A DNA stretch of 64,000 bases from Stropharia rugosoannulata (taxonomy: Eukaryota > Basidiomycota > Agaricomycetes > Agaricales > Strophariaceae), in assembly GCA_028532985.1 (NCBI GenBank), contig JANCIK010000005.1, positions 2,858,501 to 2,922,500 on the forward strand, read 5' to 3'. Shown piece after piece: positions 7,063 to 35,666 of the stretch (its first letter is position 1; each line of letters begins with the position of its first letter). Below the pieces are notes generated by a model. It did not search any database and had not been told where the DNA came from. It was given only the letters and a program-made list of their open reading frames with translations. The position numbers were made by a program, and so were the translations under genes.

Positions 7063-7409
7063 ATGTCGTACCCCGGCCCCATAACGGTTGATACTGGCGA
7101 TGTCCCGAGCGGTGCTCACAGCAATCCTTCCCCTGCCAATACTGACAGCTCCAATGAGCTGTCAGAGCAGCTTTCAAGTTCTGGCTACTCTACTGGCCAT
7201 GATTCACTCACTATGGTGGGCAGCCAGTCATCCCTTAAAGACCCTCATTTGCAGCCGACGGGGCCAGTCCTTGTCCCTAGTCCTACCACACCCATGCCGG
7301 GTGCTTACAACAAAACCCAGGGCACAATATTAGCGTTAACCCAGCCAGCCACTCCAGTTCCCCCACACAACGCCACACCTACCCCTGACCATTACTACAG
7401 CATTTCCGG
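7063..7409 (+). pseudogene. 5' part of a gene split by the 16.4-kb retroelement
   Basis: Starts at ATG 7063 and encodes about 115 residues of Ser/Pro/Thr-rich, low-complexity sequence (MSYPGPITVDTGDVPSG at the start). The frame runs to the CCGG target site at 7406-7409. Beyond it the reading continues into LTR sequence and stops at 7482. If the element and one CCGG copy are removed, the codon continues in frame into 23859, so this and 23855-25183 were one gene. The present allele can make only a truncated protein. The family is not recognised; it is a low-complexity-plus-coiled-coil protein of the kind common in Agaricomycetes. Confidence 0.75.
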
Positions 7410-7748
7410 TGAAGGACCTTGTTTGGGTCTGGTCAAGTGCTCAGTGATGGCCCGTTTGTATGTCCTGCTAGAAATGATCTAACACAACACAACCAACAAC
7501 CACAACAAAAACACACAACCAATCTCAAACAAATGCTTCTTTAATGCGAAGTCGGGGGTCTATGTACAAAAGAAAGACACAGTTGTCTTTTATAATATAA
7601 GCCGGGTAAACGTTTTCTTAACACAAAGACTCAGCCCGAGGGGCGTGGTGGTGTGGTGTGATAAGTGTAGTTTGTGTGCGTATGACGCGAGGTGCTCGAA
7701 TGAGACTTAGTCTGACACGACGATCAGAAAGAGAACTGAAAACTGTTT

Positions 7749-7907
7749 AACCGCTCCAGGTATGTGCGCGACGACACTGCCTGCAAAATAACCGCTCAGG
7801 TATACACGTAGTGTTGCCTGCAAAATGACCGCTCCAGGTATGTGCGCGACGACACTGCCTGCAAAATTAAACCGCTCCAGGTATACGTTAAACGTTGCCT
7901 GCAAAAC
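7749..7907. repeat. Four short tandem repeats in ABAB order inside the LTR
   Basis: Four units of about 36-40 bp each start ACCGCTC(C)AGGTA and end TGCCTGCAAAA. Units 1 and 3 share the core TGTGCGCGACGACAC. Units 2 and 4 have a different core (TACACGTAGTGT and TACGTTAAACGT). Each unit begins CAGG and ends CCTG, so each can fold as a small hairpin. The same array is at 22306-22463 in the other LTR. Confidence 0.8.
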
Positions 7908-8419
7908 TGCTTCCAGACTCAAGACTTAGTCAAGTAATCCGTCAAAAGCTTTGAACTCTCTCTAAACTCGCAGTGAGGACTTTAAACCGTATATATTCAC
8001 TCTAGGTAAATCTACTCGGGGGAACCTGCTATTCTACGTTACATGCTGGGGTATTTATACGTTTCTGGGAGACGGGTTTCGTAGGCGCCCGGAGGTGTTC
8101 TCTACTAAAACCTCGCACCCGATTGGTTTGTAGGTCCATACGGTTCTGCCCGTTTAATTACATTTTAGTCGTTCTAGATGGGTGGAGTAGAAATTTGAAA
8201 TAACTGAAAAAGGATAGATTCTGAAGGCTTGTCAGGAACGAGCCTATTTTTAGAACGGTTAAACCGTCTTTTGGTGCCTGGGCGTCTGTCTGCCTCCTGA
8301 GTACAGTCAGTTTTACTACGCCTTGGCTTTTTGGAATGTAAGCCGGGACAGAGTTACCCCACTGGTGAGTCATCTCGCCTCCGACTGTACCCGCTTTTCA
8401 GGGTCTATCAGGCTCCTGC

Positions 8420-8785
8420 CAAATAGCCCGCTATATTCCCTCTGTATGGCCAGTACGAGGCCTCGCTAATTAGCCCGGTTTATTGACCTTTGCTAATTAA
8501 CCCGGTATAACGTTCAGTCAAACGGCCCGGTATAACGACTAAGTCATTTAGCCCGGTATAATGCCTAAGTCAAATAGCCCGGTATAATTACTCAAGTTAA
8601 ATAACCCGGCATAATGATTTGCTTTTCCTAATCTCTCGTTTTCGATGACTGGTTTTTAGAAGACTGACCCGCTATAAGTCTCTAGTCGAGTTTCGTCGTT
8701 ATGGTTGGTGTCATTTAACCCGGTATAATTTAACCCGGTATAATGCCTCTGCCTTTGCGCTCCGTTTAACCCGCTTATCTGACTT
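8420..8785. repeat. Dense cluster of the CCCGGTATAA word in the LTR
   Basis: At least ten copies of [A/G]CCCG[G/C]TATAA or close variants stand about 15-50 bp apart (for example near 8469, 8492, 8527, 8549, 8575, 8604, 8666, 8719 and 8734). Spacing is irregular, so this is a motif cluster and not a simple satellite. Further copies follow at 8838, 8988 and 9098. The same cluster is in the right LTR at about 22979-23365. Confidence 0.8.
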
Positions 8786-9264
8786 CCTCGAAACTGAAGA
8801 CATTACTAAGTGTATTTCTTGGGCAGTAACTTTGCATTTAGCCGGTATAATTATACCGGTTAAATGCGCGTACCGTGCTCTCCTTTATGCCGGACTTATT
8901 ATTATTCTAACTTTAAGCCGGTCAGATGCGCTTATAAGCCATACTGGTCCTGCGACTAAGTCCAACCGTGAAGGCTTATTAACCCGCTTGTTTAAAGTCT
9001 CTTGGTTTACTCTCCAGTTAAGTTCTTTAACGTGGACAGTTACCGTCGTCACTTTTACTTAAGCTTTTAGTGTGGTTTCGCTTATAGTTAAAATAGCCCG
9101 CTTAATTGACTAAGTGGAGGTCTACACTTGTCTTCGTTATTCTCTGTCTCTCATTGGGTCATACTGAAGTCTTTAATATGACTTTAATAGTCTAGACTAC
9201 TGAAATGATAGGATTTGTAGTAAAATCGCAAAATTTCATGGCCAGGCACTTAGGTGCCCTATCA

Positions 9265-9300
9265 TCTCCCCCAAACCATAACTCGACTGTCCTCAGTCGA
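9265..9300 (-). promoter_or_regulatory. Polypurine tract with adjacent hairpin, next to the element's 3' LTR
   Basis: Read on the minus strand, bases 9275-9265 form TTTGGGGGAGA directly before the LTR, the expected position of the plus-strand primer for reverse transcription. Next to it 9283-9300 forms a hairpin (TCGACT, loop GTCCTC, AGTCGA). A second copy of the same arrangement is at 13362-13396. Confidence 0.75.
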
Positions 9301-9916
9301 TGCTGACTGATCTTTCTGCTTTCGGGCTTTGCCGCCGTCTATTTTTAACTCGCCACGTTGCTCGCTGTTCCCTCTGTTGAGCGATTACGCTTCCTCACTG
9401 TTCATCACAATGAGGGACGTGTTTATCCATTGTGCTCATTGTTTGTCTATTTTTGGTATTTACTGCCGCTGCTATCTCCTTTTTAGGATAAAGTGCTGCG
9501 CCACCGCCACGTCCCGCCTATGTCTCGATTCCCCATTGTGCCCGCCTTTTTGTAAGATGACCGAGTCGCTCTTCTGTTTATGACGGGGACATAGGATGAC
9601 TATTTCTGGAACGGTGATCTTGCTATGTCAAAATGACTCTCGTTTCCAACGGTCTTTCAAGAGCCCGGTTAAGTGACCGGTGCCTAATTAGGCAACGGCT
9701 CTTCCATTCTTGGTCGAATGACTTCCGTTGACCCGCCTTCTACTACTACCCGCTCTCTGGATCCTCGTATGTTTTCTTCTCCCTCCGTTCTACTCTCTTT
9801 CTGGCAATGCCTCTCCCTTTCTTTTGCTTTTGCTCGCGCGGTCTTTTCGCCTATTATTCTGTATTTAAACAGCCCGGCTTAGTACCGCTTTCCTTCATTC
9901 CCCTCTACTTGTTATC
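9301..9916. other. Non-coding leader before the first cargo gene
   Basis: No convincing coding frame. It holds a few copies of the element-wide word (near 9664, 9733 and 9873) and a pyrimidine-rich run just before the ATG at 9917. It is probably promoter and 5' UTR of the gene at 9917. Confidence 0.4.
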
Positions 9917-11741
9917 ATGGCCGCGCCTTCCCCCTCACCCGCTTTCTCCTCTCGTACTGTCTACAGCGAGTTCTTCGAGGAGCTCGCGGAAGCGCTCGAG
10001 CGTTCCCACATCCCAGCGGACACGGTCGACTTTGCACAGCCCTTTCGCCGCCTCCGCGATGCGCTGCTCGATAACCCCTTCTTGAATGATGTCTTTGTCG
10101 CCCGGCAACTCCTGAAGTCTATCATTCCGCCCCTTTTCCGTGACGCCCGGAACGTTTTACTGGCGCTAAATGGGGGTTCTTTCCAGAGAATCGAAGATGC
10201 CGGCACTATGCTGCCTGAATTTCGACATCTCTTTCGATGGGTTATCCTTCTGGTTCACTCAATTCCCTCAGAGATTCGGCAGGAGCTGGACTTGGATTGG
10301 CTCGTTCTCCCCCGGGTAAGTACTTTACTCCCGTTCAGTTTTGTTTCTACGGTTTCTTATGGATATTTTTAGATTGACTACGGACCCGTCTGTCCGGTAT
10401 CTGTACTCCGGCAACTCGAATTCCCCTCTCCTGTGGTGGACCCTGCCCTTGTTCAGGGGTTTGATGGGGACTTTCCCCACCTTTTTGAAGGTCTCCTGGA
10501 TGGTTTTGGCCCCGGCTTAATAAATTTGGACGGGTATCGCCCTGCCGATGATGCCCCCTTGTCCCCACCTACACCACAAGTGGCTGGGGTAGACGTAGTG
10601 CCTTCGGGCCCTTCCACCCCTACAACAGGTTCGTTATTTTATTTTATTTTTATTTTTATCTTTCCTTTATCTCATTTGCTTTTAGCACCGTCTCGTCTCT
10701 CGGCCCCTTCCCCCGGGCCTGTGCATCCTTTCACTGGGAGGCCGCGGCCATCTGTCTCTCGCGCGGTCCCCGTCCCAACCGGTCAGGCAGACGGGTCCGT
10801 TTTCACTCCACCGCCCATTCGTCCCATACGCAGGAATACGGCACGCGAGGGCCCCGCTTACGCGCACTATGCGCAACAACACCGTTGGGAGGCAACGCCT
10901 CTGGAATTCAAGGATCCCCGCCCGCCTCAGCTGATAAACCGGGCGCAAGCTGAGGGGCTTCGGGCCCAACATAATATTCGGGTGAGTTTCTTTAGCCCGG
11001 TTATTTTCTTCTGGCTCTCAAGTCCTCTTTTTCTTTAGTTACCAACCCCCTGTGCTGCCTGCCTGCTTCTTGGTCTGGAGGACCGTTGTGAGGTTCAGGA
11101 AGGTGAAGACCGGTGCACCCCATGTATAGTGCGCAAGTCTACTACCTTCCCTTGCACTTTCATGGCTTCCCCGGACGAGCGGGCCCTTTTGTCTGAGCGA
11201 TGCTACTTTCTGGGTGGCACTTCCCTTGCTGGTAAGCTACGTTTCTTCTGACTCTCTTCTTACTTTTCTAATTTATTACTCTCTTTTTCCAGCTATCCAA
11301 GACGACTTCTCTAGCCTGCAACATCAGGCGGAGCAATACATCGTTCAGAGTCGACTAGCCGAGGCCAGCTTCGCCCGGGCCGAATTCTATCGCGACCGGA
11401 TCTACGCCCGTTTGGGCCTGCTCCTCGAGTCGGACTCGCCCGACGCCATCTATTCTACACACGCTTCGATGGACCGCGCGTCTTTTGACGCCTTGGTGGA
11501 GGCTACGCGGGCTTCTGACGGGTTGGGGCGGGTACGCGCTCGTTTCTCGGTTGACTCTGTGGTGGAGAACCTGGCAGAGTCCTACATGCCCGAGGTGCCT
11601 CAAGTTGCACCTTACAACGACACCCAGCGCGCCGACCCCGCTTCTTTAGCTGAGTCCGAGGCTGAAGGTTCCGAAGAGGTGGACCCGGCTCCTCCAGCTG
11701 AGTCTGAAATGGAGGTCGACGACTCAGGGTGGACTGTCTGA
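9917..11741 (+). CDS. Retroelement cargo gene 1: protein with a six-cysteine zinc-cluster-like module
   Basis: Exons 9917-10315, 10373-10628, 10686-10981, 11039-11231 and 11293-11741 join in frame (530 aa) with GT-AG introns of 57, 57, 57 and 61 bp. It runs antisense to the element's gag-pol. The N-terminal third is a helical region (start MAAPSPSPAFSSRTVYSEF). The middle is Pro/Arg-rich (FTPPPIRPIRRNT). About 11051-11158 encodes CX2CX8CX8CX2CX9C, close to a fungal Zn2Cys6 cluster but with longer loops. After it come a helical coiled-coil-like stretch and a very acidic Glu/Asp/Ser tail ending DDSGWTV. The layout (basic and cysteine module plus acidic tail) would suit a DNA-binding regulator; that is inference. 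It is not a known retroviral-type protein. Nearest comparison: antisense extra ORFs of plant Tat/Retand Ty3 elements. Confidence 0.72.
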
Positions 11742-12000
11742 GGGGTCTTTTTGTACTGTTTTGTCTACTTCTTTTTGTGTAATGTTCTCTCTTGTGTACT
11801 TCTTTAGTAGGAGTACAAATTTTATATTCTTTTCTTTCTTGATAACTTCTTAAGTGTGAATCTGAGTCAATGATTTATTCTTTCAAGTTCTTTCCTTTAA
11901 GAATTTTGTTACAAGTTTTCTGCCCGGTTATTTGTCCACATTTGGGACTCCGTCTTTTGATCCCTCTTTTAAACTGAGTCTTTTTGACCCTTGTTCACTC

Positions 12001-12561
12001 ATGGACAACTTGGAACTCTCTAATACCTTGCAGGCGATTAACCGTGCTAAACAGTCCAACCCGGTTAGCTTAGATGACATCTATTGGCTTGCCGTTGGTT
12101 GTATGTCTGAGACAGTGAGCGGTCTGTTTTTATACCCGGTTATTTGGTCTGACTCTCCCTTTTCGTCTAGTTGGACCTCCTGGATCATTTGCCCGGCATA
12201 TCCACTGGTCTACAATTTCGCAACCAGGTCGTACAACTACTCAAGGAGTATCATTTGTGTCTTTATTACGCGGTCAATCCCCCTTCGTACCCATCAGTCT
12301 ATTATACCCGGTTGACTTCTGTCGTTCGCAATTGGTATGACTGGGACGCAGAGGAGTTTGCCCGTCGTCTCGCAAGGGTATGTCTGTTCTTGGCTTCTAG
12401 ATTGTTTGCCAACAGCCCGGTTAATTTGTCTTTCTCAGCACATTCGCTCTGAGGCTTGCTTCCGCTCGTATCATGTGAACGTGCTGCCTTACGATTTTAC
12501 CCGTTACCATCCGTCAGGTAGTAGTGATCCCGGGGATATGGACTTAGATCTGTACATATAA
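12001..12561 (+). CDS. Retroelement cargo gene 2: small protein of unknown function
   Basis: Exons 12001-12114, 12171-12377 and 12439-12561 join in phase 0 to 147 aa. All boundaries are GT-AG, introns 56 and 61 bp. The ATG at 12001 is the first in a clean frame (MDNLELSNTLQAINRAKQ). The protein is mostly predicted helix with aromatic-rich segments (YHLCLYYAVNPPSYPSVYY) and ends with acidic residues. No family is recognised. Both introns contain one copy of the element-wide ACCCGGTTA/GCCCGGTTAA word. It follows cargo gene 1 by 260 bp on the same strand and is antisense to gag-pol. Confidence 0.65.
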
Positions 12562-12611
12562 AATCCTGTATTTTTCTACCGGTTTTTACTTGTCTCTTTG
12601 GCCGTCTATCC

Positions 12612-13229
12612 ATGTCTCCTCCTCGCAGGCCACGTTCCCCTCGGGTTCGCTTTTCCTCAGACATTATTGCCTCTCGTCTGGCCGATGCTATGGCTGATAT
12701 TAACCAGCATTGCAATCGTAACGTCATAGACTTAGCAGGTCTTGCTCGTCTTTTAGCCCGGGCCTCTTGTTTAATGGTCAGTCACCTTTCTTATTTCTAA
12801 GCTTTAAGTGGCCTGATTTTGTCGTAGTCCCGTCTATTTGACGCTGTCGAGTCCTCTACTCCTACGGACGCCAATTATCCCCTTGCTTTCAACTCGATAA
12901 CCCGCTATCTTCGAGCATTGTTGCGGCATTATCACCTTCTACGCTATTTCTTGCGTGATAGGGCGTATTTTTATCCCGCCAACTATCATCGTTTTGCGCG
13001 TGTCGGGGTTATGCTTGGCTTTCTCTTTGATCGCGATACCCGCTTAATTGAGGCTGAGGTTCGGGCTTATTATTCTCTCTCAGTCTCTCTGCTTACTCTC
13101 TCGTGTTTTTAGGACTGGTATTCTGAACGGTGCAAGTATCCGCTAGACCGGCGCGTCACTTCTCGTGCGTTGACTTTGGAGGAGCAGAACCCATTTTGCC
13201 CGTGTGGCTTCTTAGTACACACATTGTAG
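12612..13229 (+). CDS. Retroelement cargo gene 3: basic N-terminus, unknown function
   Basis: Exons 12612-12776, 12828-13058 and 13113-13229 join in phase 0 to 170 aa. It starts only 51 bp after the stop of cargo gene 2. The N-terminus is strongly basic (MSPPRRPRSPRVRF). The middle has histidine and aromatic clusters (LRHYHLLRYFLRDRAYFY). The C-terminus has a CPCG pair. The second intron begins GTTCGG, a weaker donor, but the frame closes cleanly with it. No known domain is recognised. The tight head-to-tail spacing with cargo genes 2 and 4 suggests they are kept as a set. Confidence 0.6.
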
Positions 13230-13361
13230 ATCATTAATTTGTTGATGTCAATCGTGATCTGCCCGCTTAATTAAAGATTTAGCGTTTTTGGCTTGGCGTT
13301 GGATTTGTTTATGTGTATAGGCGAATTAAACCGGTCTAAGTTTTAGCCCGCTTATTTCTCC

Positions 13362-13396
13362 TCTCCCCCAAACCAAAAATCGAGTGTCCCACTCGA
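13362..13396 (-). promoter_or_regulatory. Second, internal polypurine tract copy with hairpin
   Basis: Minus strand of 13372-13362 reads GGTTTGGGGGAGA-like, matching the LTR-adjacent tract at 9265-9277. It is followed by a hairpin at 13380-13396 (TCGAGTG, loop TCC, CACTCGA). The stem differs in sequence from that at 9283-9300 but keeps base pairing. It lies between cargo genes 3 and 4. Confidence 0.55.
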
Positions 13397-13532
13397 CCCG
13401 AGTGTGCCCGTGTCATGGCCTAGAATTCTTGTGCGTCCGCCCTGAATTAACCCGGATAAATGTGTACCCATCTGGCCCTCCCTGCCTTCTTTAATGCGAG
13501 GAACTTAGCGGACTCTGGCGTGGTGAGAAATG

Positions 13533-13540
13533 TATAAAAG
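13533..13540 (+). promoter_or_regulatory. TATA box of cargo gene 4
   Basis: TATAAAAG lies 62 bp before the ATG at 13602, on the same strand. It supports an independent promoter inside the retroelement, opposite in direction to the LTR-driven transcript. Confidence 0.5.
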
Positions 13541-13601
13541 GTCGCGCTTTGCAACGTCGAAGAACAGACCAACATTACTTGTCCGCGTCCTCCGTCGCAA
13601 C

Positions 13602-15058
13602 ATGGCTACTTTTGACATCTCTTCTACCCTTGAACGCGTTCAAGCGGGTCTCGCCCAATACAAGTCTACCCGGCCGTTATTGGGTACTGTCGATGCTATT
13701 ACGCCCAAGCTCTTAGCCGACCAGTTAGTAGCCCAGGTTATGCTGATGGTAAGCAAAATCCCAGCGACCCAAAATAACCCATCACATCAACTCTTATTGT
13801 AGCTCCCGTGGGGCGAGGATATGTTGTCCCTACTCGCACATACCGCTGCGTGCGATGCGTTGTTATTCTGCCGGGCAGAGTTACTTCACATTCACGCGGC
13901 TGGTGCAGCGTCTGGTTACGAACATCCTTCGGAGTTCCACAAGCTTAGCTCGCTTACTATCCATATCCACAATCATCGCAAAGGTCAATCCCTCAAAGCT
14001 CAGCAGCAAAAGGTACGTGCAGAAGCTGAAGCCGCTCTGCGCGACCAAGCGAAGCAGTCCCAGCGCGAGGTGAGCCAGTCGTATCTCAACTTTCATTATA
14101 CCGGGCTAATTTTACCCGGTACAGACCCGTCATCGCAAGGTCAAATCCAAGGCGACCGTGGAGGACAGCGACGAAGAAATGGAGCCGGTTATCATCCTGG
14201 ATGGTAATCCCCGTTCTCTCCAAGGATCTATGCATGCCCCAGCCACCCCGGTATGTTGTTGGAATTTTTAGCCCGGTAAAACACTTGTCTCACGGGTCTG
14301 GTTACTTAGGACGCGATGGTCGTTGACGACGCCACTGCTACTCCTACTCAAGCGTCTGTACGTGCTGAGGCGAAAGCTGCTAAGAACGCTCCTCCGACGC
14401 CTGGAACTCCTTCCTCTGTAGGTAGTGGCACCCTTCGATCTTAGGTGACTTACTAACTGCGCTTCTCTACCCGGTTCAGCGTGAACGCAAGGCTGAGGTG
14501 CGCTATTTCCCTCTGGCACAGATTAGCGGCCTCAACACTGATACCCCGGCTTACCGTAAGGTCACCCGTGTTACCAGCAAGTCTGATCGTCCGTCCTCCA
14601 AGCGCCCTCGTTCTTCCATGACGCCGCGCACTGTAGCAGGCGCTCCCGCTGGTGAAGGTACTGCGTATTTCCACTGTTCCCAATGGACACCTCGTTGACC
14701 CATTTTTGCAAAACAGGCGGCCTCGATGGACCTGTCGAGCTAGACGAATGCCTTATGCGGGTACGCGTCCTTCAATCCCAGGAGAAGCTCGCTATCTCAT
14801 CCGTCCGTGGCGCACAAAAGGAAAAGGAGCTCTTACTTGCCCAACTCGAAGAACACCACTATCACTTGCGCTACAACCTTCGTATGCGCGACTTGGTAGT
14901 CGAAAGCCTCCAGAAGTGGCAGGCCAAGCATGAACCCGGTATGTCATTCCTCACAATACCTATCTTTTACAATTAACCCGTCATGACTAGATGCGCTCTT
15001 CTCTTCGCTTGACCAGCAGGTCCACAGCGAGATCGTCCGGTGCCCAGTATCTACGTAG
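13602..15058 (+). CDS. Retroelement cargo gene 4: coiled-coil protein with basic nuclear-type signal
   Basis: Seven exons join in frame to 371 aa: 13602-13748, 13803-14069, 14125-14250, 14310-14417, 14480-14657, 14717-14938 and 14991-15058. All introns are GT-AG, 52-62 bp. Visible parts: a helical N-terminal region (MATFDISSTLERVQAGL), a charged helix (KAQQQKVRAEAEAALRDQAKQ), an acidic patch (VEDSDEEMEPV), a basic KRPRS patch that could be a nuclear signal, and a C-terminal coiled coil (EKELLLAQLEEHHYHLRY). Four of the six introns carry the element-wide word (two copies in 14070-14124). Its stop lies 264 bp from the end of the convergent integrase frame. No enzyme motif is seen; a structural or DNA-associated role is guesswork. 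Confidence 0.68.
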
Positions 15059-15321
15059 TCAAAAGCTCTTATAGTACCCTCAAGTAGTGTTGTTAGACTT
15101 CATAGGATAGAAATACGAATAGAATCTCCGTGTGTTAAAATCTGGACGCCTTTGAACAGAGCTTCAACCTTTACACCGGGCAATTCAGTCGTCTTCGCCA
15201 TTCTCAGAGTCGCTCAGATTCCCAGACAAGTCATCATCAGCCGATGGTTCTGAAGCGTCCAAGATCCTTTGTAACCCGTCTTTTGAAATGTTCAACCACT
15301 CTAATAAATTGTCCGGTAAGT

Positions 15322-15662
15322 CTATTTTTGACCGGGCAAAATAAGGTAAAACCTAAATTGCGCGACTTTGTGACTCCACAGGGCACCGTTTAATTCTGCC
15401 ACGATGTAGGATCCGCCTGTAGTCCGTCGGATGACAACCATCGGTCCAAGATATCGCGGCTTCATTTTCTTGTCTAGGCTAGACTCGATGCCTGTGTTGC
15501 GGACTAAAACCAAATTGCCCGGGTTAAAATCAAAGTCTTTTATGACAGCCTTGTGATCGGCTTCATACTTCAACAACCGGTCTACTTTGGCCTTAGTTAT
15601 TTTAGCCCGCATTTCATCAATCAGAGTGGCTTGTTTAGCTAGCGCTTGAGCCCGAAAACCAA
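15322..15662 (-). CDS. Integrase C-terminal domain frame of the giant element
   Basis: Encodes the SH3-like C-terminal part of a Ty3 integrase (DFNPGNLVLVRNTGIES, then KPRYLGPMVVIRRTTGGSYIVAEL), which normally binds DNA beside the catalytic core. It is out of frame with the core by one base: near 15660-15672 the core frame ends at DEN-stop, while the next frame reads RRELIGFRAQALAKQ, the usual continuation. One base missing in a CCGA-type run would explain this. It belongs to the polyprotein ending at 15663. Confidence 0.75.
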
Positions 15663-17381
15663 TTAATTCTCGTCGGTTAGAATCCTACCCGGCAGTTTAA
15701 CTAACCAGGTAGCTTCAACTATATCCAGAGGTATGGTAGGGTGCGCCGCTGTTACCATAAAGAAGGGTGAACAACCAAGCCGCTTCCTTATTGAAATACG
15801 GTCGGCCCACAACACATGGTATAAGAACCAGAACCACTTCGAGATCTGACCGCCTGTTGCTTTGTACAACATTTGACGGATATCCCAATGAGGCCTTTCC
15901 ACCGTCCCATTTGCCCGTGAGTTATATGGGGAAATTCTGATACCCCGGATGCCATATTTATCAGCTAGCCATTTGACCGCTTTAATAAATGGAGGCCCGT
16001 TGTCTGTCACTATCTCCACCATGCAACCCCATCTTGTTATAATCTCTTCGAAAAGCCATTTGCCAATAGTTTCACTATTTTCATTTCTAACTGCCCGGGC
16101 TTCTGGCCACGATGTAAGGTTACATCGCCCGTGTACTATGTATTTACACCCGTTTGAAGGCGGTGACATATTCATGGTATCACAATGCACGACTTGGAAA
16201 ACTGACGGCGTATGAGTAACGACAGGGGGTATCTGGACCAGTATTTTCTGTCGCTCTTGACAGAAATGACAAGTCTTGATATACCACACCACATCTCGCT
16301 CTAATTCTGGCCACCAAAATCTACCCGCTAAAAGGTTCTTAGTGGAATAAACTCCCCGGTGTCCTAAACTGTCATGCGCTGCCTTCAACATATACATGCG
16401 GTCTTTCTTGGCGACCACTAGTCTGTGTTGAGAGTTTTCGCTCCGTCTGTACAGCCGTCCCTCTGCGTCTAAGAAGAAATGAGCTGCCCATCTTTTAAAG
16501 TTTTTAACTTTCTTAGATGTGTTGCAATAAGCGGGCAGGGTAGTCAAGTCTTTTAACCAGGTTGTTATATCCGGTAACTTAGCATCATGATCTATGCCTA
16601 TTTTAGTTCTTAGGTCCTCGGGATATGCATCCACAACCGGATCCTCGGTCCGTTCTGGCAGTAAGTCTCTACTTATTTGGTTTGTAAAGGCTGTCATCAT
16701 GGCTACCACTTGTTTATTTTGCCGGGTTGTTTCCTTTTTCAAGAACTCCCTTAGCTCTTTACAAGTTTCTTGTGCTAGGACTTTGGCAGTTTTAATTTCT
16801 GTCTCGAAGTCTTTTACACAAGTAGCTCGCGTATGTAGAAATCCCTTCCTAGAGTCTATTTGATCTGCAAACTTCTCTATTTCAAACGGAATAGGCCCGT
16901 TTGGATCATCTAAGACACATTTAGGAGGTAATTCTTCTGCCTCTTCCTCGAGATCTGGGTTAGAATATTCTTCGTCCCCTGGGTAATATGGTCTGCGAGA
17001 TAGCCCGTCTGGTCCAAAAGTTGCTCCTACTTTGTGTACCAGTGTGAACTGGAACAATTTAATATTGTCAATCCACCGGTTTATAGTAGCATTTGGCATC
17101 AGATCTGGATTCTCTAACATCCCCTTTATGTAAGATGCGTCGGTTTCCACTACTAATTTTCGTACCCCCAGTAGCCAGTGTCGACAAGCGTACAAGGCTC
17201 TCATGAGGCCAAACAATTCTCTCTTAGGTTGAGAGAAGCGGGCTTCTCGTTCGTTCATAGGTATTGATCCGAATCGTACGTAGTACTTCTTTTTAGGGTC
17301 ATCTATATCGCGTTGATAAATATAATAGCCTATAGCCATATACGAAGTATCAACCGCCAACACTACTTCCCTTGCCCTCAT
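15663..17381 (-). CDS. RNase H and integrase of the giant element
   Basis: 572 residues from Met 17381. RNase H begins VVLAVDTSYMAIGYYI and contains VETDASYIKG and GATFGPDGLSRRP. The integrase has an HHCC finger (HDSLGHRGVYSTKNLL ... CHFCQERQ). The core has DTMNMS, IVTDNGPPF and RANGTVERPHWDIRQ, giving the D, D, E triad. RNase H removes the RNA template and integrase inserts the cDNA. An in-frame TAG at 17385-17387 separates this frame from reverse transcriptase, at a place where related polyproteins are continuous (usual motif KPIDYxSGR). Either readthrough, internal start or a mutated site must be assumed. All catalytic acidic residues are present. Confidence 0.88.
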   Translation of the reverse strand: MRAREVVLAVDTSYMAIGYYIYQRDIDDPKKKYYVRFGSIPMNEREARFSQPKRELFGLMRALYACRHWLLGVRKLVVETDASYIKGMLENPDLMPNATINRWIDNIKLFQFTLVHKVGATFGPDGLSRRPYYPGDEEYSNPDLEEEAEELPPKCVLDDPNGPIPFEIEKFADQIDSRKGFLHTRATCVKDFETEIKTAKVLAQETCKELREFLKKETTRQNKQVVAMMTAFTNQISRDLLPERTEDPVVDAYPEDLRTKIGIDHDAKLPDITTWLKDLTTLPAYCNTSKKVKNFKRWAAHFFLDAEGRLYRRSENSQHRLVVAKKDRMYMLKAAHDSLGHRGVYSTKNLLAGRFWWPELERDVVWYIKTCHFCQERQKILVQIPPVVTHTPSVFQVVHCDTMNMSPPSNGCKYIVHGRCNLTSWPEARAVRNENSETIGKWLFEEIITRWGCMVEIVTDNGPPFIKAVKWLADKYGIRGIRISPYNSRANGTVERPHWDIRQMLYKATGGQISKWFWFLYHVLWADRISIRKRLGCSPFFMVTAAHPTIPLDIVEATWLVKLPGRILTDEN

Positions 17382-17384
17382 AGT

Positions 17385-18989
17385 CTATGGTTTTAGGCAT
17401 TCGACCACGTCTAGGCCATCCTTTATAAGTCGCATGCTTTCTTCTTGTTCAGCACCCCACTCAAACGGGTTATTGCTCTTGAGTAATTTCGCAATGTGTT
17501 GTGCCCGTTTCGCGTAGTTAGGTATAAATATTCGCAATAGTCCCAGCGTTCCTAAGAATGCTCGTACATCGCTCACATTTTTACAAGTGCCCCAGTTTTT
17601 GATGACAGCTAGCTTATCTGGGGACGGTTTTCTTCCATCGTAGGAACACAAGTGTCCCACGACGGTGATTTCACTCTCACATACGACGGATTTATGCCCG
17701 CTAAACGTTCCCCCGCAATACCTCATTCTCTGAAGTACCCGGTTCACGTTATTCATATGCTCCCAGACAAACCGCCTAATCCCTGGATTTTCTTTGATAG
17801 TTTCATACGACCCGTCAGGTTTTTGGTAGCGTGAGGCGGGGCCTCTTACCGGTACGTCGTCTATATATGGCATAGTAATTTCTGGTACTTCCTCTTGCAA
17901 AATGAAATTAACATCATCATGAAAGATTGGTACTGAATTTGTCCATCCCATAGGCAGTGTTACCAGCCTCATAGCTCCAAAAGGTGTTTGGAATGTGGTC
18001 AGGTCTCTAGATTCTTCCGCGAGAAGCCTTTCGTCGTATCCTACATATAAATCAAACATCCCTCCACAAGCCCGACCTGAGAAATGTATTGCCAATTCCT
18101 CGGTAGCCGGGGGAACCCCAGAGTGTGCGATGGTTACCGCGTTTAGCGGTTCCAGACTATGTACCACTCTTAGCTTCCCATTTTTCTTTAGCACGGTAAA
18201 CCAACGCGTTCTATACGGTGAATTTGATGGTTCTATTATTTTGCTTTCCAATTTCTCCTTGAGTATCCGACACACCTCGCCTTGTAACCCCGGCGGAATA
18301 GGTATGTTCTTGAGCACCCACGGCTTATGTTCGATAACCGGTATTTCTACCGGTGGAAAGTACTCTTCTTTGAAGCGTCCTTTCTCACTATCTTCCCAAG
18401 CAAAAGCTCCATTCTGGTTCATCATAAGGTTATGCATCAGATCTCTTTCTGCCGGCCATAAGAAATCACTCTTGTGTACCTCGTCAAACTGTTCTTTTCT
18501 CTCTTGGGTATACCGGCCTGTCGGTACGAACGGTACTGGATTTGTAGGTAAAGCGGGCATATCAGCTAGGGGATCTCCCTTGATATCCCGTTTAATCCTG
18601 TATCTCTCCGGTAGGTCCTGAAAAACTGGTCTCACTTTCTGTGCGACCGGCTTATATTTCTTTCCTACGTACTGTCCTCGAGGCTTACTAGTATTCCTTC
18701 TTTTACCCGCTAGTTTACCTATGCCCGGTTCTCGTGTAATATCCGTTTTCACCGTTTGTTGAACGTATGATTTTCGGCTACTATACTTCTGACCCATGAA
18801 CAAGGCAAGCTTCTCTCTCTCGTTATCTTCAATCGGGCTTTCTTTTCCCGCTACCTCTAAGTAGGCGTTCATTATCCCTCTTTCCGAAAATTTACCCGTC
18901 TCAGCTACAGTGTAACCGAGTACTTGTAAACTCCCCGTCCTGGAATCATATTCCAGCATAACCGCAGTATCTCCTTGATCATCAATCAA
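17385..18989 (-). CDS. Reverse transcriptase of the giant element
   Basis: About 530 residues. It begins with a linker (IDDQGDTAVMLEYDSRTG) and continues with the Ty3-type fingers and palm: RTRWFTVLKKNGKLRVVHSL, GGMFDLYVGYDERLL, TTFQTPFGAMRLVTLPMGWTNS and the catalytic box MPYIDDVPVRG, with both aspartates intact. It then has the thumb and connection words GTLGLLRIFIPNYAKRAQHIAKLL. It copies element RNA into DNA. The protease frame and this frame meet around 18986-19010, where a one-base shift at a run of five T (minus strand) is needed to read EQVFSSIEELIDDQ. A lost T or -1 slippage would do this. Confidence 0.88.
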   Translation of the reverse strand: MIDDQGDTAVMLEYDSRTGSLQVLGYTVAETGKFSERGIMNAYLEVAGKESPIEDNEREKLALFMGQKYSSRKSYVQQTVKTDITREPGIGKLAGKRRNTSKPRGQYVGKKYKPVAQKVRPVFQDLPERYRIKRDIKGDPLADMPALPTNPVPFVPTGRYTQERKEQFDEVHKSDFLWPAERDLMHNLMMNQNGAFAWEDSEKGRFKEEYFPPVEIPVIEHKPWVLKNIPIPPGLQGEVCRILKEKLESKIIEPSNSPYRTRWFTVLKKNGKLRVVHSLEPLNAVTIAHSGVPPATEELAIHFSGRACGGMFDLYVGYDERLLAEESRDLTTFQTPFGAMRLVTLPMGWTNSVPIFHDDVNFILQEEVPEITMPYIDDVPVRGPASRYQKPDGSYETIKENPGIRRFVWEHMNNVNRVLQRMRYCGGTFSGHKSVVCESEITVVGHLCSYDGRKPSPDKLAVIKNWGTCKNVSDVRAFLGTLGLLRIFIPNYAKRAQHIAKLLKSNNPFEWGAEQEESMRLIKDGLDVVECLKP

Positions 18990-19936
18990 CTCCTCGATGC
19001 TGGAAAAACTTGTTCTGCTGCTTGCGCTGCAGTTGGCTTCCTTAGTTCTGCCGGTGATTTTCCTCTATCAAATGTTGGTACTACTAGCTTATTCCCATTT
19101 CTTGGATCCGTCAGAGTGATGGTTTGATCACCAGACGTTTCGTTTTTAATGTTACAGGCGGATACTACCTCAAAAGGGCGACCCAGAAGAACTTTGTAAG
19201 GCGGGTCGTTTATGATGTGGACTTGTAGCAAGTATTTTAACCCGCCAAAATCAAACATCACATTTCTAGCCAAACCTAGAGTCCTTTCTACATGTCCTTG
19301 GGCGCTCTGCATATTGATGGTTATTTTTGGATTCCAGGATATACCCAATGAGACTGCGACGTCTTTGGCCATGGATACTATTTCTGATCCTCCATCTAGT
19401 AATGCTTCCTCCTGATCCACATTATTAATCTTTGGGTATACTGACCTAACTGGTCTGGCTTCTGTAGCTACCCATCTGATGTCAACGGGCTCATCTGTCT
19501 CTGCTAGACTATCCAAGTATTGGACTACCGGATCAGTTACTACTATTGTACCCGCTTGACCTATTTCTGAGTCTTGAGGCAAGATACAATAATTGGTACA
19601 CTGCGGCAAGTCTTCAATATATATTTCTACCCGCTTTTGGGTGTCTGATATTATATCCAGGCTCGGTTCGGTATCTAGCTCTATTGCTGGCTCAGAAGTG
19701 CTAGGTAGTACTTCCTGACTAACAAATGATAGACTCTCCTCCGGATCAACCGGTTTATTTATTTCCCCGTCACTTTCTATATACTCATCATACCAATCTT
19801 TCCTGTTCTCGTCCTCTGTGATGTTTACATTGGACGCGACTGTAGGGTGGACTGGTACTCTGACTTTAGAAATATGCCGGGTTAATTCTTTAATAAAGCG
19901 GGCGAATTGCCCAGCAATTGCCCCACTGTAGTGCCT
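18986..19936 (-). CDS. Linker and aspartic protease of the giant element
   Basis: The frame is open from about 19936. It carries RGRHYSGAIAGQFARFI, typical of the linker before the protease in this fungal Ty3 group, then a charged stretch. The protease active site is EALLDGGSEIVSMAKDVA (D-G-G in place of D-S/T-G), followed by a hydrophobic flap region and VLLGRPFEV. It cleaves the polyprotein. Upstream it connects to the preceding frame through a +1 shift or a lost base at CGG-TAG (19940-19935). No separate start codon is convincing, so it is a domain of a polyprotein. Confidence 0.75.
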   Translation of the reverse strand, partial: RHYSGAIAGQFARFIKELTRHISKVRVPVHPTVASNVNITEDENRKDWYDEYIESDGEINKPVDPEESLSFVSQEVLPSTSEPAIELDTEPSLDIISDTQKRVEIYIEDLPQCTNYCILPQDSEIGQAGTIVVTDPVVQYLDSLAETDEPVDIRWVATEARPVRSVYPKINNVDQEEALLDGGSEIVSMAKDVAVSLGISWNPKITINMQSAQGHVERTLGLARNVMFDFGGLKYLLQVHIINDPPYKVLLGRPFEVVSACNIKNETSGDQTITLTDPRNGNKLVVPTFDRGKSPAELRKPTAAQAAEQVFPASRS

Positions 19937-20279
19937 ACCGCGTATTTAATATTAAGTCTACTACGTCTTTTGTTACTGCGCTAGCTTCCACTGGTGCTCT
20001 GGTCTGATAAGCGGGTATATGTTTCTCTCTCGGGACATCCCGCCTATGAACTTCATTCAAAGGCCTTACGTCCACGAAAGGTACCTCTGCCACTTGGCTA
20101 GGCGGAGGGTTCACATTTTCCTCTACACTTCTCGTTTGTGCAACCGGCTTCTTTCTAGCGTTCATAACGACTTCAACTATTTTATTTTTATTTTTCATCT
20201 TTGGCTGTTTTTCTAATTTGTCCTCCGGGGCTGATAAACCTACTAAGCTAGCCAACTTATTAGGGTCAGCTGATCCCAT
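19935..20279 (-). CDS. Linker frame between gag and protease
   Basis: 114 residues from ATG 20279 (MGSADPNKLASLVGL), rich in Lys, Pro and Val (KQPKMKNKNKIVEVV), ending KDVVDLILNTR-stop. The frame is -1 relative to gag, and a -1 slip at the AAATTTC heptamer on the gag stop (20300-20294) would fuse it to gag. The usual domain order then continues into RGRHYSGA in the next frame, so it is part of the Gag-Pol polyprotein and not an independent gene. Confidence 0.65.
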   Translation of the reverse strand: MGSADPNKLASLVGLSAPEDKLEKQPKMKNKNKIVEVVMNARKKPVAQTRSVEENVNPPPSQVAEVPFVDVRPLNEVHRRDVPREKHIPAYQTRAPVEASAVTKDVVDLILNTR

Positions 20280-20290
20280 CCTCGAACGCT

Positions 20291-21550
20291 TTAGAAATTT
20301 TCTTGGTCTGCGTCTTCTTGCATTTTACCGTATAGGTATTGCCTGACGTCGTTCAGATCCATTTTGTCCAGAAGAATCTCCAAGTCAGCCTGGGTTGAAT
20401 CACCCGGGTTGAATTGTTCTCCTTCGGCTCTGTGAGCGACTGTGTGGTTGAACTGTATTATACCGGGCTGGTTCCTTGGTTTCACATTAAGATTAACCGT
20501 GACCTTGCCGTCGACAAACAGCGCCTCAACTCGCTCTTTTACTGAGTCCCCTGCTTTTCCCCACGGAACAGGTCTTCCGTCAGCCAATTTAACTTTGCCA
20601 TAGACATCTACCAATATCCATCCTTTAGCTATATGATCCCCTTTTACCGGGCATTCATTTTTCATATGGCCAGACTCATTGCAATAGAAACAAATGCCTG
20701 ACGGGCTGCTGCTAGCACCATACCTAGGTCCATTACTACCTGAGGATTGGGCTAGCACCCTAGACTGCGACATTAACCGGGTTAATTCCTCAATCTTATT
20801 ATTGATAAGTTTCATATTGCTCTCAGCCTGTTTGGCTTGGATATTGAAGGTGTCTTTCATCCTGCATATCTCAGCTTCTACCTTAGTGGACATTTCTGGA
20901 TTAGCCCGGCTGTTTTGGCTTGTACTCGCGCGTGACGTTAACGATTTGTAGGTCGTTCGGGAACCTTGACCAATCGATATAGCCGTCTCGATCACATCGT
21001 CCAATTTATACCTGTCTTCGGGTCGTACTTTTCCTTCTACAGCTTTACTTGTTACCTCCAAACGGCTCTGTACGTTACTTCTAAACTCTGGCTCTAGACA
21101 CTCCAAGAACATTTCCACGGCTTCTCTGTTAGACAGTAAGGCGGGTTCTTTTTGTAGTTTAGAGACCTCGGCTACAAAGCTTCGTATCAAAGATTTCAGG
21201 TCCACGAGGTCGGTCTGATCGATTCCTCTATGATCCTTGCATAGTCGCTGTAATTTCTTAAGCGAACCCCGTTCTTGGTCGGCTGCCTGGGGATATGAGT
21301 CTATCAGTTCACTTTTGAACTTCTCCCAATTTTCCCCAGTATAGGATTTCAGATATTGCCACTCCATTTCTGAAGTCGCATCTGCGTATTTCCCTAGATT
21401 GGTAATCTTTTCCTCGTCCTCTGTGATTGAGTACTTTTTGTATAAGTCCTCCATTCGACTGATGAATCTCAGGAGTTCTTCTGGCTTTTCCGAATCAAAG
21501 GACGGGGCGTCCCTTGATTGGGGGTTGGGCATTCTGCTTTTATCCGCCAT
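20291..21550 (-). CDS. Gag (capsid-nucleocapsid) of the giant element
   Basis: 419 residues from Met 21550. It has a Retrotrans_gag-type helical capsid region (EELLRFISRMEDLYKKYS, YLKSYTGENWEKFKSELI, FLECLEPEFRSNVQSRL), a coiled segment (NIQAKQAESNMKLINNKIEE), and a CCHC zinc knuckle CFYCNESGHMKNEC at about 20652-20693. It forms the particle and binds the RNA. The frame stays open without an ATG for about 100 codons upstream (to about 21850), with a very basic composition. The true start may therefore lie further up, through splicing or a non-AUG codon; 21550 is the first AUG. Confidence 0.85.
   Translation of the reverse strand: MADKSRMPNPQSRDAPSFDSEKPEELLRFISRMEDLYKKYSITEDEEKITNLGKYADATSEMEWQYLKSYTGENWEKFKSELIDSYPQAADQERGSLKKLQRLCKDHRGIDQTDLVDLKSLIRSFVAEVSKLQKEPALLSNREAVEMFLECLEPEFRSNVQSRLEVTSKAVEGKVRPEDRYKLDDVIETAISIGQGSRTTYKSLTSRASTSQNSRANPEMSTKVEAEICRMKDTFNIQAKQAESNMKLINNKIEELTRLMSQSRVLAQSSGSNGPRYGASSSPSGICFYCNESGHMKNECPVKGDHIAKGWILVDVYGKVKLADGRPVPWGKAGDSVKERVEALFVDGKVTVNLNVKPRNQPGIIQFNHTVAHRAEGEQFNPGDSTQADLEILLDKMDLNDVRQYLYGKMQEDADQENF
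20294..20300 (-). promoter_or_regulatory. Candidate -1 ribosomal frameshift heptamer at the gag stop
   Basis: Minus strand reads GAA AAT TTC TAA in the gag frame. AAATTTC has the X-XXY-YYZ form, immediately before the stop. A -1 slip reads AAA TTT CTA AAG and enters the linker frame at 20279 without a stop. Confidence 0.6.
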
Positions 21551-21965
21551 ATTTTCTAGAGGAGGTATACTCTCTGTACTAGTAGTGGTTTGGAAGTTTA
21601 AGCGGGGTACTGGTTTTAAAACTCGTTTACGGACGGTGGGTACTAGACCACTGGATAACCCGGCAGTAACTGAATTTAAAGTCGCGCGTTTCTTAGGAGC
21701 ACCAGGCGGTTGTAATGCGCTGATGGCTAATGAGGAAGTAGCGGCTTGTTTTGCTCGGTCTAACTTAGTCGCTCGTTTGACTGGCGACGACGTTTTACTA
21801 GAGCTTTTGTTTTTAGAACTTTTTGTAACCGGCGAAATCTTTACTAAGATCCAGTAATGATTTCAACCGGGCAGAACTGAATTCTTTATATAAAGAACCC
21901 GTTTATTTAGGTTTATATTATAATAACTGTAATCAGTCTAAAACCCCCTCGCGGTGGGCTCCAGA
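21551..21965 (-). other. 5' leader of the giant element with primer-binding-site candidate
   Basis: Lies between the LTR and the first gag AUG. Read on the minus strand the bases just inside the LTR are TC-TGGAGCCCACCGCGAGG. TGG two bases from the LTR edge is the usual start of a primer-binding site pairing with a tRNA 3' CCA end (plus-strand CCA at 21961-21963). The donor tRNA is not identified. The rest is the open, basic upstream extension of gag described under that entry. Confidence 0.45.
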
Positions 21966-23854
21966 TGAAGGACCTTGTTTGGGTCTGGTCAAGTGCTCAG
22001 TGATGGCCCGTTTGTATGTCCTGCTAGAAATGATCTAACACAACACAACCAACAACCACAACAAAAACACACAACCAATCTCAAACAAATGCTTCTTTAA
22101 TGCGAAGTCGGGGGTCTATGTACAAAAGAAAGACACAGTTGTCTTTTATAATATAAGCCGGGTAAACGTTTTCTTAACACAAAGACTCAGCCCGAGGGGC
22201 GTGGTGGTGTGGTGTGATAAGTGTAGTTTGTGTGCGTATGACGCGAGGTGCTCGAATGAGACTTAGTCTGACACGACGATCAGAAAGAGAACTGAAAACT
22301 GTTTAACCGCTCCAGGTATGTGCGCGACGACACTGCCTGCAAAATAACCGCTCAGGTATACACGTAGTGTTGCCTGCAAAATGACCGCTCCAGGTATGTG
22401 CGCGACGACACTGCCTGCAAAATTAAACCGCTCCAGGTATACGTTAAACGTTGCCTGCAAAACTGCTTCCAGACTCAAGACTTAGTCAAGTAATCCGTCA
22501 AAAGCTTTGAACTCTCTCTAAACTCGCAGTGAGGACTTTAAACCGTATATATTCACTCTAGGTAAATCTACTCGGGGGAACCTGCTATTCTACGTTACAT
22601 GCTGGGGTATTTATACGTTTCTGGGAGACGGGTTTTCGTAGGCGCCCGGAGGTGTTCTCTACTAAAACCTCGCACCCGATTGGTTTGTAGGTCCATACGG
22701 TTCTGCCCGTTTAATTACATTTTAGTCGTTCTAGATGGGTGGAGTAGAAATTTGAAATAACTGAAAAAGGATAGATTCTGAAGGCTTGTCAGGAACGAGC
22801 CTATTTTTAGAACGGTTAAACCGTCTTTTGGTGCCTGGGCGTCTGTCTGCCTCCTGAGTACAGTCAGTTTTACTACGCCTTGGCTTTTTGGAATGTAAGC
22901 CGGGACAGAGTTACCCCACTGGTGAGTCATCTCGCCTCCGACTGTACCCGCTTTTCAGGGTCTATCAGGCTCCTGCCAAATAGCCCGCTATATTCCCTCT
23001 GTATGGCCAGTACGAGGCCTCGCTAATTAGCCCGGTTTATTGACCTTTGCTAATTAGCCCGGTTTATTGACCTTTGCTAATTAACCCGGTATAACGTTCA
23101 GTCAAACGGCCCGGTATAACGACTAAGTCATTTAGCCCGGTATAATGCCTAAGTCAAATAGCCCGGTATAATTACTCAAGTTAAATAACCCGGCATAATG
23201 ATTTGCTTTTCCTAATCTCTCGTTTTCGATGACTGGTTTTTAGAAGACTGACCCGCTATAAGTCTCTAGTCGAGTTTCGTCGTTATGGTTGGTGTCATTT
23301 AACCCGGTATAATTTAACCCGGTATAATGCCTCTGCCTTTGCGCTCCGTTTAACCCGCTTATCTGACTTCCTCGAAACTGAAGACATTACTAAGTGTATT
23401 TCTTGGGCAGTAACTTTGCATTTAGCCCGGTATAATTATACCGGGTTAAATGCGAAGCGTACCCGTGCTCTCCTTTATGCCGGACTTATTATTATTCTAA
23501 CTTTAAGCCGGTCAGATGCGCTTATAAGCCATACTGGTCCTGCGACTAAGTCCAACCGTGAAGGCTTATTAACCCGCTTGTTTAAAGTCTCTTGGTTTAC
23601 TCTCCAGTTAAGTTCTTTAACGTGGACAGTTACCGTCGTCACTTTTACTTAAGCTTTTAGTGTGGTTTCGCTTATAGTTAAAATAGCCCGCTTAATTGAC
23701 TAAGTGGAGGTCTACACTTGTCTTCGTTATTCTCTGTCTCTCATTGGGTCATACTGAAGTCTTTAATATGACTTTAATAGTCTAGACTACTGAAATGATA
23801 GGATTTGTAGTAAAATCGCAAAATTTCATGGCCAGGCACTTAGGTGCCCTATCA
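21966..23854 (-). repeat. LTR of the giant element (5' LTR in element orientation)
   Basis: 1889 bp with the same termini as 7410-9264. It keeps full CCCGG words where the other copy has CCGG, including a perfect palindrome at about 23419-23450 (TTTAGCCCGGTATAATTATA and its partner). It has one extra 27-bp repeat unit near 23035-23090. It would drive the gag-pol transcript to the left. Confidence 0.93.
22306..22463. repeat. ABAB short tandem repeats in the second LTR
   Basis: Same four-unit array as at 7749-7907, unchanged in order and sequence as far as can be read. Confidence 0.8.
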
Positions 23855-27246: not shown

Positions 27247-27369
27247 TTCCATTTTGAAGCTATTTAGAATTTAGAATTTTCAGAATTAAATAAATAATTG
27301 AATAGATATATTGATTCTGCATCTGGTTAATGATTTATCTGAGTTTATGTGTGACCTTGGTGTGACCTC

Positions 27370-30355: not shown

Positions 30356-30388
30356 GTTTGATTCGACCACAACCTCGTCCTGCCCACC

Positions 30389-31468: not shown

Positions 31469-31502
31469 ATGGTAGCTCCTTGAACCAGGTCCTTGGGCTA
31501 CC
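31456..31502 (+). promoter_or_regulatory. -1 frameshift signal: GGGAAAA heptamer plus hairpin
   Basis: In the gag frame the bases read TTG GGA AAA GCT TAG. GGGAAAA (31456-31462) is a standard X-XXY-YYZ slippery site. Eight bases later GGTAGC (31471-31476) pairs with GCTACC (31497-31502), extendable by two pairs. A -1 slip reads GGG AAA AGC TTA GAT and enters the open pol frame. Confidence 0.75.
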
Positions 31503-35663: not shown

Positions 35664-35666
35664 TAA

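Follow-up and report, generated by a model that had tools for sequence, protein, structure and literature searches.

A Ty3-type retrotransposon lineage of Stropharia rugosoannulata with four spliced antisense genes and family-specific DNA motifs

The window analysed here is a 64,000-nucleotide stretch of Stropharia rugosoannulata DNA (contig C5, 2858501-2922500) from a 48-Mb assembly of 20 contigs, and all searches for further copies cover this one genome. It contains a Ty3-type long terminal repeat (LTR) retrotransposon of 16,445 bp at 7410-23854, the window copy of a family here called F1. It is striking that four spliced plus-strand genes, g1 to g4, lie between its integrase and its 3' LTR, antisense to gag-pol. 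The same arrangement recurs in other copies and in two sister families, and each family has its own over-represented DNA word, which the gene products may recognise. The four cargo genes are:

9917-11741, plus strand: g1, exons 9917-10315, 10373-10628, 10686-10981, 11039-11231 and 11293-11741; 530 amino acids
11039-11231, plus strand: g1 exon 4, with a six-cysteine (zinc-cluster-like) cluster
12001-12561, plus strand: g2, exons 12001-12114, 12171-12377 and 12439-12561; 147 amino acids
12612-13229, plus strand: g3, exons 12612-12776, 12828-13058 and 13113-13229; 170 amino acids
13602-15058, plus strand: g4, exons 13602-13748, 13803-14069, 14125-14250, 14310-14417, 14480-14657, 14717-14938 and 14991-15058; 371 amino acids

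The initial annotation had placed four intron-containing genes here, opposite to gag-pol, and this is borne out: all four splice in frame, through 14 introns (4 + 2 + 2 + 6) of 51-62 bases, every one GT-AG. Its count of sixteen or more exon joins was too high, and the TATA box that it gave to one gene becomes TATA-like boxes ahead of three genes, g1, g3 and g4, at positions -55 to -69 relative to the ATG. The g4 that it proposed stands as a gene, except for the last exon, which as annotated is private to the window copy and atypical for the family. An indel sets all eight other copies (8/8) apart there, and five of these (C10a, C12, C4, C2 and C10b), with like splicing, have their first stop at codon 357, not 372. 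The genes are very probably expressed from antisense promoters. The introns outlast retrotransposition because the cargo lies antisense to the genomic RNA, which holds only the introns' complement, and this complement lacks splice signals.

In Pfam, nothing exceeded the cut-off for g1-g4 (best E 0.026), and no TET/JBP dioxygenase domain was found in them; Pfam also gave nothing useful for the cargo of the sister family F2, and a PDB search with g1 matched no solved structure. The cysteines of g1 exon 4 are spaced C-x2-C-x8-C-x8-C-x2-C-x9-C, which we take to resemble the Zn2Cys6 (GAL4-type) pattern, and no more than resemble it; g1 does not match PF00172. This six-cysteine exon is a candidate reader of the family motif described below.

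The remaining features of the element, with the LTRs named relative to gag-pol, are:

7406-7409: target-site duplication CCGG, 4 bp, with its second copy at 23855-23858
7410-9264: 3' LTR, 1855 bp, TG...CA, with many F1 motif sites
9265-9277, minus strand: polypurine tract adjoining the 3' LTR, GGTTTGGGGGAGA on the minus strand
13359-13396, minus strand: internal copy of the polypurine/LTR-edge stretch, between g3 and g4 (blastn, 39 columns at 85% identity)
15663-17381, minus strand: RNase H and integrase part of pol, with an H2C2 zinc domain
17385-18989, minus strand: reverse transcriptase (RT) part of pol
18986-19609, minus strand: aspartic protease (E 5e-5, below the Pfam cut-off)
20291-21550, minus strand: gag, with a CCHC knuckle above the Pfam cut-off and the Ty3 capsid model below it
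21947-21963, minus strand: primer binding site (TGGAGCCCACCGCGAGG), two bases inside of the 5' LTR
21966-23854: 5' LTR, 1889 bp

The element thus has a TG...CA LTR pair (termini TGAAGGAC...CCCTATCA), a short target duplication, a tRNA-type primer site and a polypurine tract, and its pol order (protease, RT, RNase H, integrase) is that of Ty3-type elements. The Pfam match of the RT is weak (E 0.001, below the cut-off); among solved structures it matches 7q5b, named Ty3-G Gag-Pol, at 2e-14, and best of all 4ol8 (RT/RNase H), at 7e-16. The pol frame is broken between RT and RNase H in the window copy and is an open frame of 1294 amino acids in the C10 and C4 copies, and the C-terminal part of the integrase seems to run on in another frame to about 15191. 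The window LTRs differ by 4 substitutions over 1855 aligned bases, plus 34 gap columns. The primer binding site pairs, counting the added CCA, with the 3' end of a tRNA-like sequence present at 11 places in the genome, which on their TTCGA T-loop signature would be tRNA genes. By eye, F2 also has a polypurine/LTR-edge stretch similar to the internal one, located before g2 (minus strand of L041, at about 5075-5100), and such internal stretches in these long elements are possibly central polypurine tracts. An Rfam scan of window positions 1-40000 gave nothing useful, and no relatives of the RT were found in the viral contigs searched.

Further F1 copies were sought with g1, g2, g3, g4 and RT as queries, and then mapped by DNA. 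This yielded eight (C10a, C10b, C6, C12, C4, C2, C13 and C11), each with the cassette or its remains, and as far as each extends, the order is LTR-g1-g2-g3-g4-integrase and the cassette is antisense. The match in C11 begins inside g4, with g1-g3 missing; C4 and C13 are interrupted, the former by a complete element of the second sister family, F3; and in C12, C2 and C10b the gag part was not matched within the stretches fetched. The F1 cargo matches all lie inside element copies, apart from one degenerate g1 relative (L042, C13:1.231 Mb, 54% over the first 144 residues) that is not assignable to an element. In four F1 copies the two LTRs are 0-6 substitutions apart, and F1 has therefore moved recently. 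Some cargo genes are damaged: g1 has frameshifting indels in C10a and C6 and an insertion in C12, and g3 has a stop in C2. The C12 insertion (L026, about 0.76 kb, with ends that look inverted by eye) is probably a small transposon remnant. The GT-AG ends of the introns are kept across the copies apart from single exceptions: intron 2 of g1 is not recognisable in C4, C2 and C13, GC donors occur in g1 of C2 and g4 of C11, and the acceptor is changed in g2 of C10b. It is virtually certain that the retained cassette belongs to the element. Recent capture of host genes is ruled out by the copies elsewhere in the genome with the cassette in place, and an ancient host origin of the cargo genes is possible.

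Selection was assessed as the ratio of nonsynonymous to synonymous substitution rates (dN/dS), computed against the window copy except for g1, where six alleles were compared pairwise. For gag-pol it is 0.04-0.15 in RT (6/6 copies), 0.08-0.15 in RNase H-integrase (6/6 copies), 0.04-0.24 in the protease (five copies) and 0-0.15 in gag (three copies). For the cargo it is 0.03-0.16 in every g1 pair giving a finite value (4 of the 30 did not, because exon 1 is saturated), 0.08-0.14 for g4 in four informative copies (C12, C4, C2 and C10b), 0-0.12 for g3 in three (C12, C4 and C10b), and 0.03 and 0.11 for g2 in C12 and C10b. In each of the four genes, codon position 3 has the most substitutions, with 274/138/924 summed over positions 1/2/3 in g1; the rows are related, and p values are indicative only. 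These sums omit window positions 10550-10720, where g1 nucleotides are misaligned, the end of g4 from 14930, and rows truncated or bearing inserts (C4_0 and C13 of g2, and C13 of g3 and of g4), and retain the decayed C11 row of g4 (28/34/37). The cargo genes are under purifying selection between copies, with g1 conserved as strongly as pol, and the codon-position pattern together with dN/dS rules out chance open reading frames (ORFs).

The two sister families, F2 (L041) and F3, have RTs about 60% identical to that of F1. F3 is the complete element nested in C4, at 644800-660660, the LTRs of which match over 1210/1213 bp with 3 substitutions. Both families have four antisense genes in the order and layout of F1, F2 being seen on the cargo side, and the F2 and F3 cargos are clearly homologous (g4 pieces 78-88%, g2 64-66%, g3 51%, g1 37-48%). 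The correspondence of F1 to F2 genes rests on order, orientation and exon layout, because the sequence relation is weak or undetectable. A possible fifth gene, F2_g0, was dropped: its first exon is 98% identical to F3 g2, and it is taken to belong to another element, adjacent to the LTR. At least 89 sister-family g4-like loci were clustered from the matches listed and compared with the 81 of 314 RT candidates that were scored, and the counts based on RT are lower bounds. Among these listed loci, RT lies on the opposite strand and the expected side in 57 within 4 kb and in 60 within 8 kb, and in another arrangement in 0 and 5, respectively. For F2-like g1 loci, 29 of the 52 listed have RT in the expected arrangement within 12 kb, 27 at 5.6-6.0 kb. 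A further relative, L043, with an integrase 45% identical, gave no cargo match in the fetched 10 kb and no motif enrichment, and appears to pass from pol directly to an LTR-edge-like stretch.

The initial annotation had inferred a retrotransposon lineage that keeps its own protein set, and the eight further copies and the sister families, with the same order and orientation, agree with this. It had named two outcomes that would speak instead for a one-off capture. One was cargo proteins found only as host genes; within this genome the matches are inside elements, bar the one degenerate g1 remnant. The other was that further copies lack the genes or decay at random; the genes are instead under purifying selection between copies, although several single copies are damaged. 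The family-specific motifs, the exchange of g1 as a module and the dozens of copies go beyond that annotation.

Within otherwise similar copies, g1 is an exchangeable, HYPERDIVERGENT module, hyperdivergent and recombining. C10a and C6 are 98-100% identical to the window copy throughout. Among the remaining copies, most bins outside 10,000-12,000 have 88-100% identity (83% in one C13 bin), whereas within 10,000-12,000 identity drops to 64-88% in the majority of bins of C4, C2, C10b and C13, and to 76-80% in two bins of C12. Synonymous divergence (dS) in g1 runs from 0.15 up to about 3, with most values over 0.5, whereas gag-pol has 0.04-0.13. Moreover, the closest relatives differ along the gene: window and C12 stand at 1.18 in exon 1 and 0.15 in exons 3-5, C2 and C13 at 0.32 and 0.85, and C4 and C13 at 1.04 and 0.33. 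These mosaic relationships are what recombination during reverse transcription would give. In F2, 28 loci could be paired from 30 g1 and 30 g4 matches; identity to the L041 copy has a median of 93.5% in g4 (65-97) and of 67% in g1 exon 1 (50-99), and 10 of the 28 pairs combine a g4 at least 93% identical with a g1 exon 1 at 70% or less.

The over-represented words are RCCCGSTW with A/T-rich flanks in F1, TCCGCTGAGC (counted as CCGCTGA) in F2 and TGCGCGCA in F3. Each is dense in its own family and rare elsewhere: RCCCGSTW has 48 sites in F1 (7410-21965), 0 in F2, 4 in F3 and 1 in 28 kb of host DNA; CCGCTGA has 35 in F2, 0 in F1, 5 in F3 and 3 in the same host DNA; and TGCGCGCA has 29 in F3, 0 in F1, 0 in F2 and 3 in the host DNA. 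CCGCTGA occurs 14 times in 5.0 kb of the F2 relative L044 and 13 times in 4.5 kb of the F2 relative L045. Of the F1 sites, the cargo strand has 36 and the opposite strand 12; for F2 the numbers are 30 and 5, and the F3 motif is palindromic. F1 motif density is 8.8 per kb in cargo introns, 7.0 per kb in LTRs and 2.1-2.2 per kb in coding DNA, with the following cluster:

8389-8776, plus strand: densest F1 motif cluster of the 3' LTR, 11 sites

Outside the LTR cluster the F1 sites are mostly dispersed, and the motif does not lie mainly in noncoding tandem repeats, as a VANDAL-like arrangement would have it. Markov-2 simulation with the F1 pattern, which was picked on this same element, gave the following observed counts against the mean (maximum of 200): 13 against 0.8 (5) in the LTR, 7 against 0.3 (3) in introns, 8 against 0.8 (3) in intergenic DNA, 8 against 1.0 (5) in cargo exons and 12 against 1.45 (5) in gag-pol. 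The commonest 7-mer of the F1 internal region is at simulation level only (15 against 14), and the case for the F1 motif rests on the degenerate pattern, the 8-mers and the LTR. The F2 word was observed 40 times, with simulations reaching 20. For F3, plain GC-rich composition was considered as the source of the word, and the 58 observed exceed the 41 reached in simulations, a smaller excess than that of F2. A partly independent check on RCCCGSTW is how often its 8-mers are intact between copies: 112/145 (77%) in noncoding DNA against 2098/3478 (60%) for other CpG 8-mers, and 79/110 (72%) in coding DNA against 4858/8343 (58%). As for the cysteine exon, it is 86% identical in L044, which has the same motif as F2, and 33% in F3, which has another; g1 N-terminal identity to L041 is 58% for L044 and 40% for L045. 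With three motif classes, the link between cysteine exon and motif is a lead, not proof.

The integration sites are of the form NCGN. All five two-sided 4-bp duplications (CCGG in the window, and CCGC, GCGT, ACGT and GCGA in three further F1 copies and F3) have a central CG, as do 7/8 one-sided flanks, namely C2, C10b, C13, C11 and, with LTR starts placed by inference, L041, L044 and L045; C12 is without it. The CpG frequency for comparison is 0.05 in 28 kb of the window, and the sites suggest CpG-directed integration.

It is worth adding that the window holds a second, ordinary Ty3 element at 30056-35966, with 300-bp LTRs that are 99% identical and a single pol frame of 1246 amino acids; no cargo was seen in it and no motif enrichment (1, 1 and 0 sites of the F1, F2 and F3 motifs). 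There is also a tandem repeat of 117-bp period at 27251-27952, and a Plavaka-type transposase fragment lies near the F1 element, at 2661-3845; such a transposase and the short introns suit a basidiomycete.

We propose, with a probability of roughly 45%, that this is a Ty3-lineage element with a lineage-owned four-gene regulatory cassette that acts on the family's own motif copies. The cassette would have promoters of its own, from which its genes are transcribed in antisense to the genomic RNA; their products, the best candidate being g1 through its six-cysteine exon, would recognise the family's own motif; and the bound proteins would keep the family's copies transcribable, by activation, by removal of silencing marks or by both. 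Each family would thereby carry a private self-recognition system. Such a device is preferred because varied self-encoded proteins, one of them with a cysteine cluster, coincide with family-private DNA words. That some cassette protein binds the family motif has a little under an even chance. That this binding would serve anti-silencing or activation is argued by analogy and is more tentative. The most specific version, in which g1 would read the family motif and lift silencing from kin only, with motif and reader co-evolving and alleles traded by recombination as an independent counterpart of VANDAL/VANC, is doubtful as a whole.

Several points weigh against the proposed regulatory cassette. 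The g1 six-cysteine exon matches no zinc DNA-binder family in Pfam (best E 0.065, DUF3716). The g1 of F1 is weakly related to that of F2 and F3 (hhalign E 0.0014, probability 18%), and no relation was detectable between F1 g2-g4 and the F2 and F3 cargo. No listed RT lies in the expected place within 4 kb at 32/89 listed g4-like loci, or within 12 kb at 23/52 listed g1-like loci, and six RT/g1 pairings within 12 kb are in another arrangement. Some dN/dS values do not look like selection: for g1, 0.36 in C10a (2 differences) and 0.24 in C6 (5 differences); for g2, 0.48 in C4, 0.52 in C13 and 0.26 in C2; for g3, 0.33 in C2 and 0.54 in C13; and for g4, 0.61 in C11, 1.01 in C13, 1.30 in C6 (5 differences) and 0.33 in C10a (2 differences). 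These rows are damaged or misaligned copies, or have very few differences. As regards the motif, five other RT loci (17.4 kb in total) hold 6, 0 and 1 sites of the F1, F2 and F3 motifs, the 6 F1 sites being the adverse ones; the simulation contrast for RCCCGSTW is optimistic, given how the pattern was picked; the p values for the 8-mers (3e-5 and 0.005) are optimistic too, with overlapping counts and related copies; and the link to the cysteine exon is drawn from three motif classes. Finally, VANC21 sites in Arabidopsis are described as lying mainly in noncoding DNA (PMC5735166), whereas here coding DNA has them too.

Among the alternatives, the one that survives best, although we judge it unlikely, is that the four proteins are structural or replication accessories, acting in nuclear import, particle assembly or cDNA (complementary DNA) protection, and that the motifs are otherwise caused. 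The small size of g2 and g3 suits it, as do the C-terminal part of g4, which looks coiled-coil-like by eye, the strong conservation of g1, and the account of plant antisense ORF products (GENE23) as nuclear and compared by the authors to retroviral accessory factors (PMC7264820). It leaves unexplained, however, why the motifs are family-specific, and why g1 is hyperdivergent when g4 and pol are not.

Distinctly less probable is that the nucleotide sequence of g1 diversifies to escape homology-dependent silencing, the protein being unchanged, and that recombination then shuffles the alleles. This would fit the high dS of g1 at a dN of 0.03 to 0.23, compared with gag-pol, and the like pattern in 10/28 F2 pairs. 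However, old alleles together with recombination account for g1 equally well, and diversification is far lower both in the upstream flank (9250-9999, where diverged copies keep 88-96% identity to the window copy) and in the LTRs, although the divergence extends downstream to about 12,000 in C2, C10b and C12. It is improbable that the dispersed motifs are RNA-level signals, bound by Gag or used to package a very long genomic RNA, with the cassette independent of them: their presence in coding and noncoding parts along the whole length is what such signals would show, but the sites occupy both strands, most of them lie on the cargo strand and not on that of the genomic RNA, and the F3 word is palindromic. 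A single capture of host genes, for which the typical spliced structure and TATA-like boxes might speak, is very improbable in view of the whole or partial cargo in all eight other F1 copies, the fixed distance of the cassette from RT in the sister families, the absence of F1 cargo matches away from elements in this genome bar the remnant L042, and the purifying selection on the cargo.

For the mode of action proposed, the nearest comparison is with the VANDALs, which are Mutator-like DNA transposons, whereas the element here is a retrotransposon; the comparison concerns mode of action only, and the element is not classed as a VANDAL. VANC21 and VANC6 act in self-recognition, according to PMC5735166. 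The likeness is that each family has its own dense short motif, rare elsewhere, and that the element-encoded proteins have conserved and highly variable parts (PMC5735166, PMC10398659). For VANC, binding is proven (PMC5735166), whereas here motif reading is proposed.

Antisense extra ORFs are already known, and what appears to be new here is the four-gene spliced set, the family motifs and the hyperdivergent g1. The aORF-3R elements described include, from several plant families, Retand, Grande gene23, RIRE2 and PvRetro13, and in fungi Boty/brtn of Botrytis and Sclerotinia (PMC7264820, PMC8365987); according to the review, their function is not known (PMC7264820). They are LTR elements with antisense coding DNA between pol and the 3' LTR in most copies, the extra ORF is about as conserved as other retrotransposon proteins, and the antisense gene of Grande has its own upstream promoter (PMC7264820). 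In F1, too, most copies carry antisense coding DNA in the stretch from integrase to the 3' LTR, and its conservation is like that of pol. F1 differs in having four spliced genes, where one antisense gene is named for Grande and Boty (PMC7264820), a layout shared with families whose cargo barely matches, family-specific dispersed motifs and a hyperdivergent first gene, brtn being compared by description only. The giant Ty3-type elements Ogre and Burro and the LTR elements of rotifers are likewise long, with extra coding capacity (PMC6431247, PMC5408684), but their extra ORFs are reported to lie downstream of pol, about the place of env, or, for Burro, to be in frame with gag-pol, and the account in PMC6431247, as far as its text was available, describes no four-gene spliced antisense set for Ogre/Burro-type elements. 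Fungal transposons with TET/JBP dioxygenases also have an extra gene that might counter DNA methylation, and may be another kind of counter-silencing, but they are DNA transposons with a known enzyme family, a domain that g1-g4 lack (PMC12730594). Among the openly licensed PMC papers listed by the searches, to the extent of the text available, no multi-gene spliced antisense cassette and no motif-bearing fungal LTR elements are described.

If the proposal is true, this would be a second independent case of transposons with a private, sequence-specific anti-silencing device and, to our knowledge, the first such device in an LTR retrotransposon. Within a single genome the lineage combines many copies, with several genes in an element, three motif classes and natural recombinants. 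The function is therefore testable, since every family yields a prediction of a protein, of a DNA word and of the copies that would be its targets.

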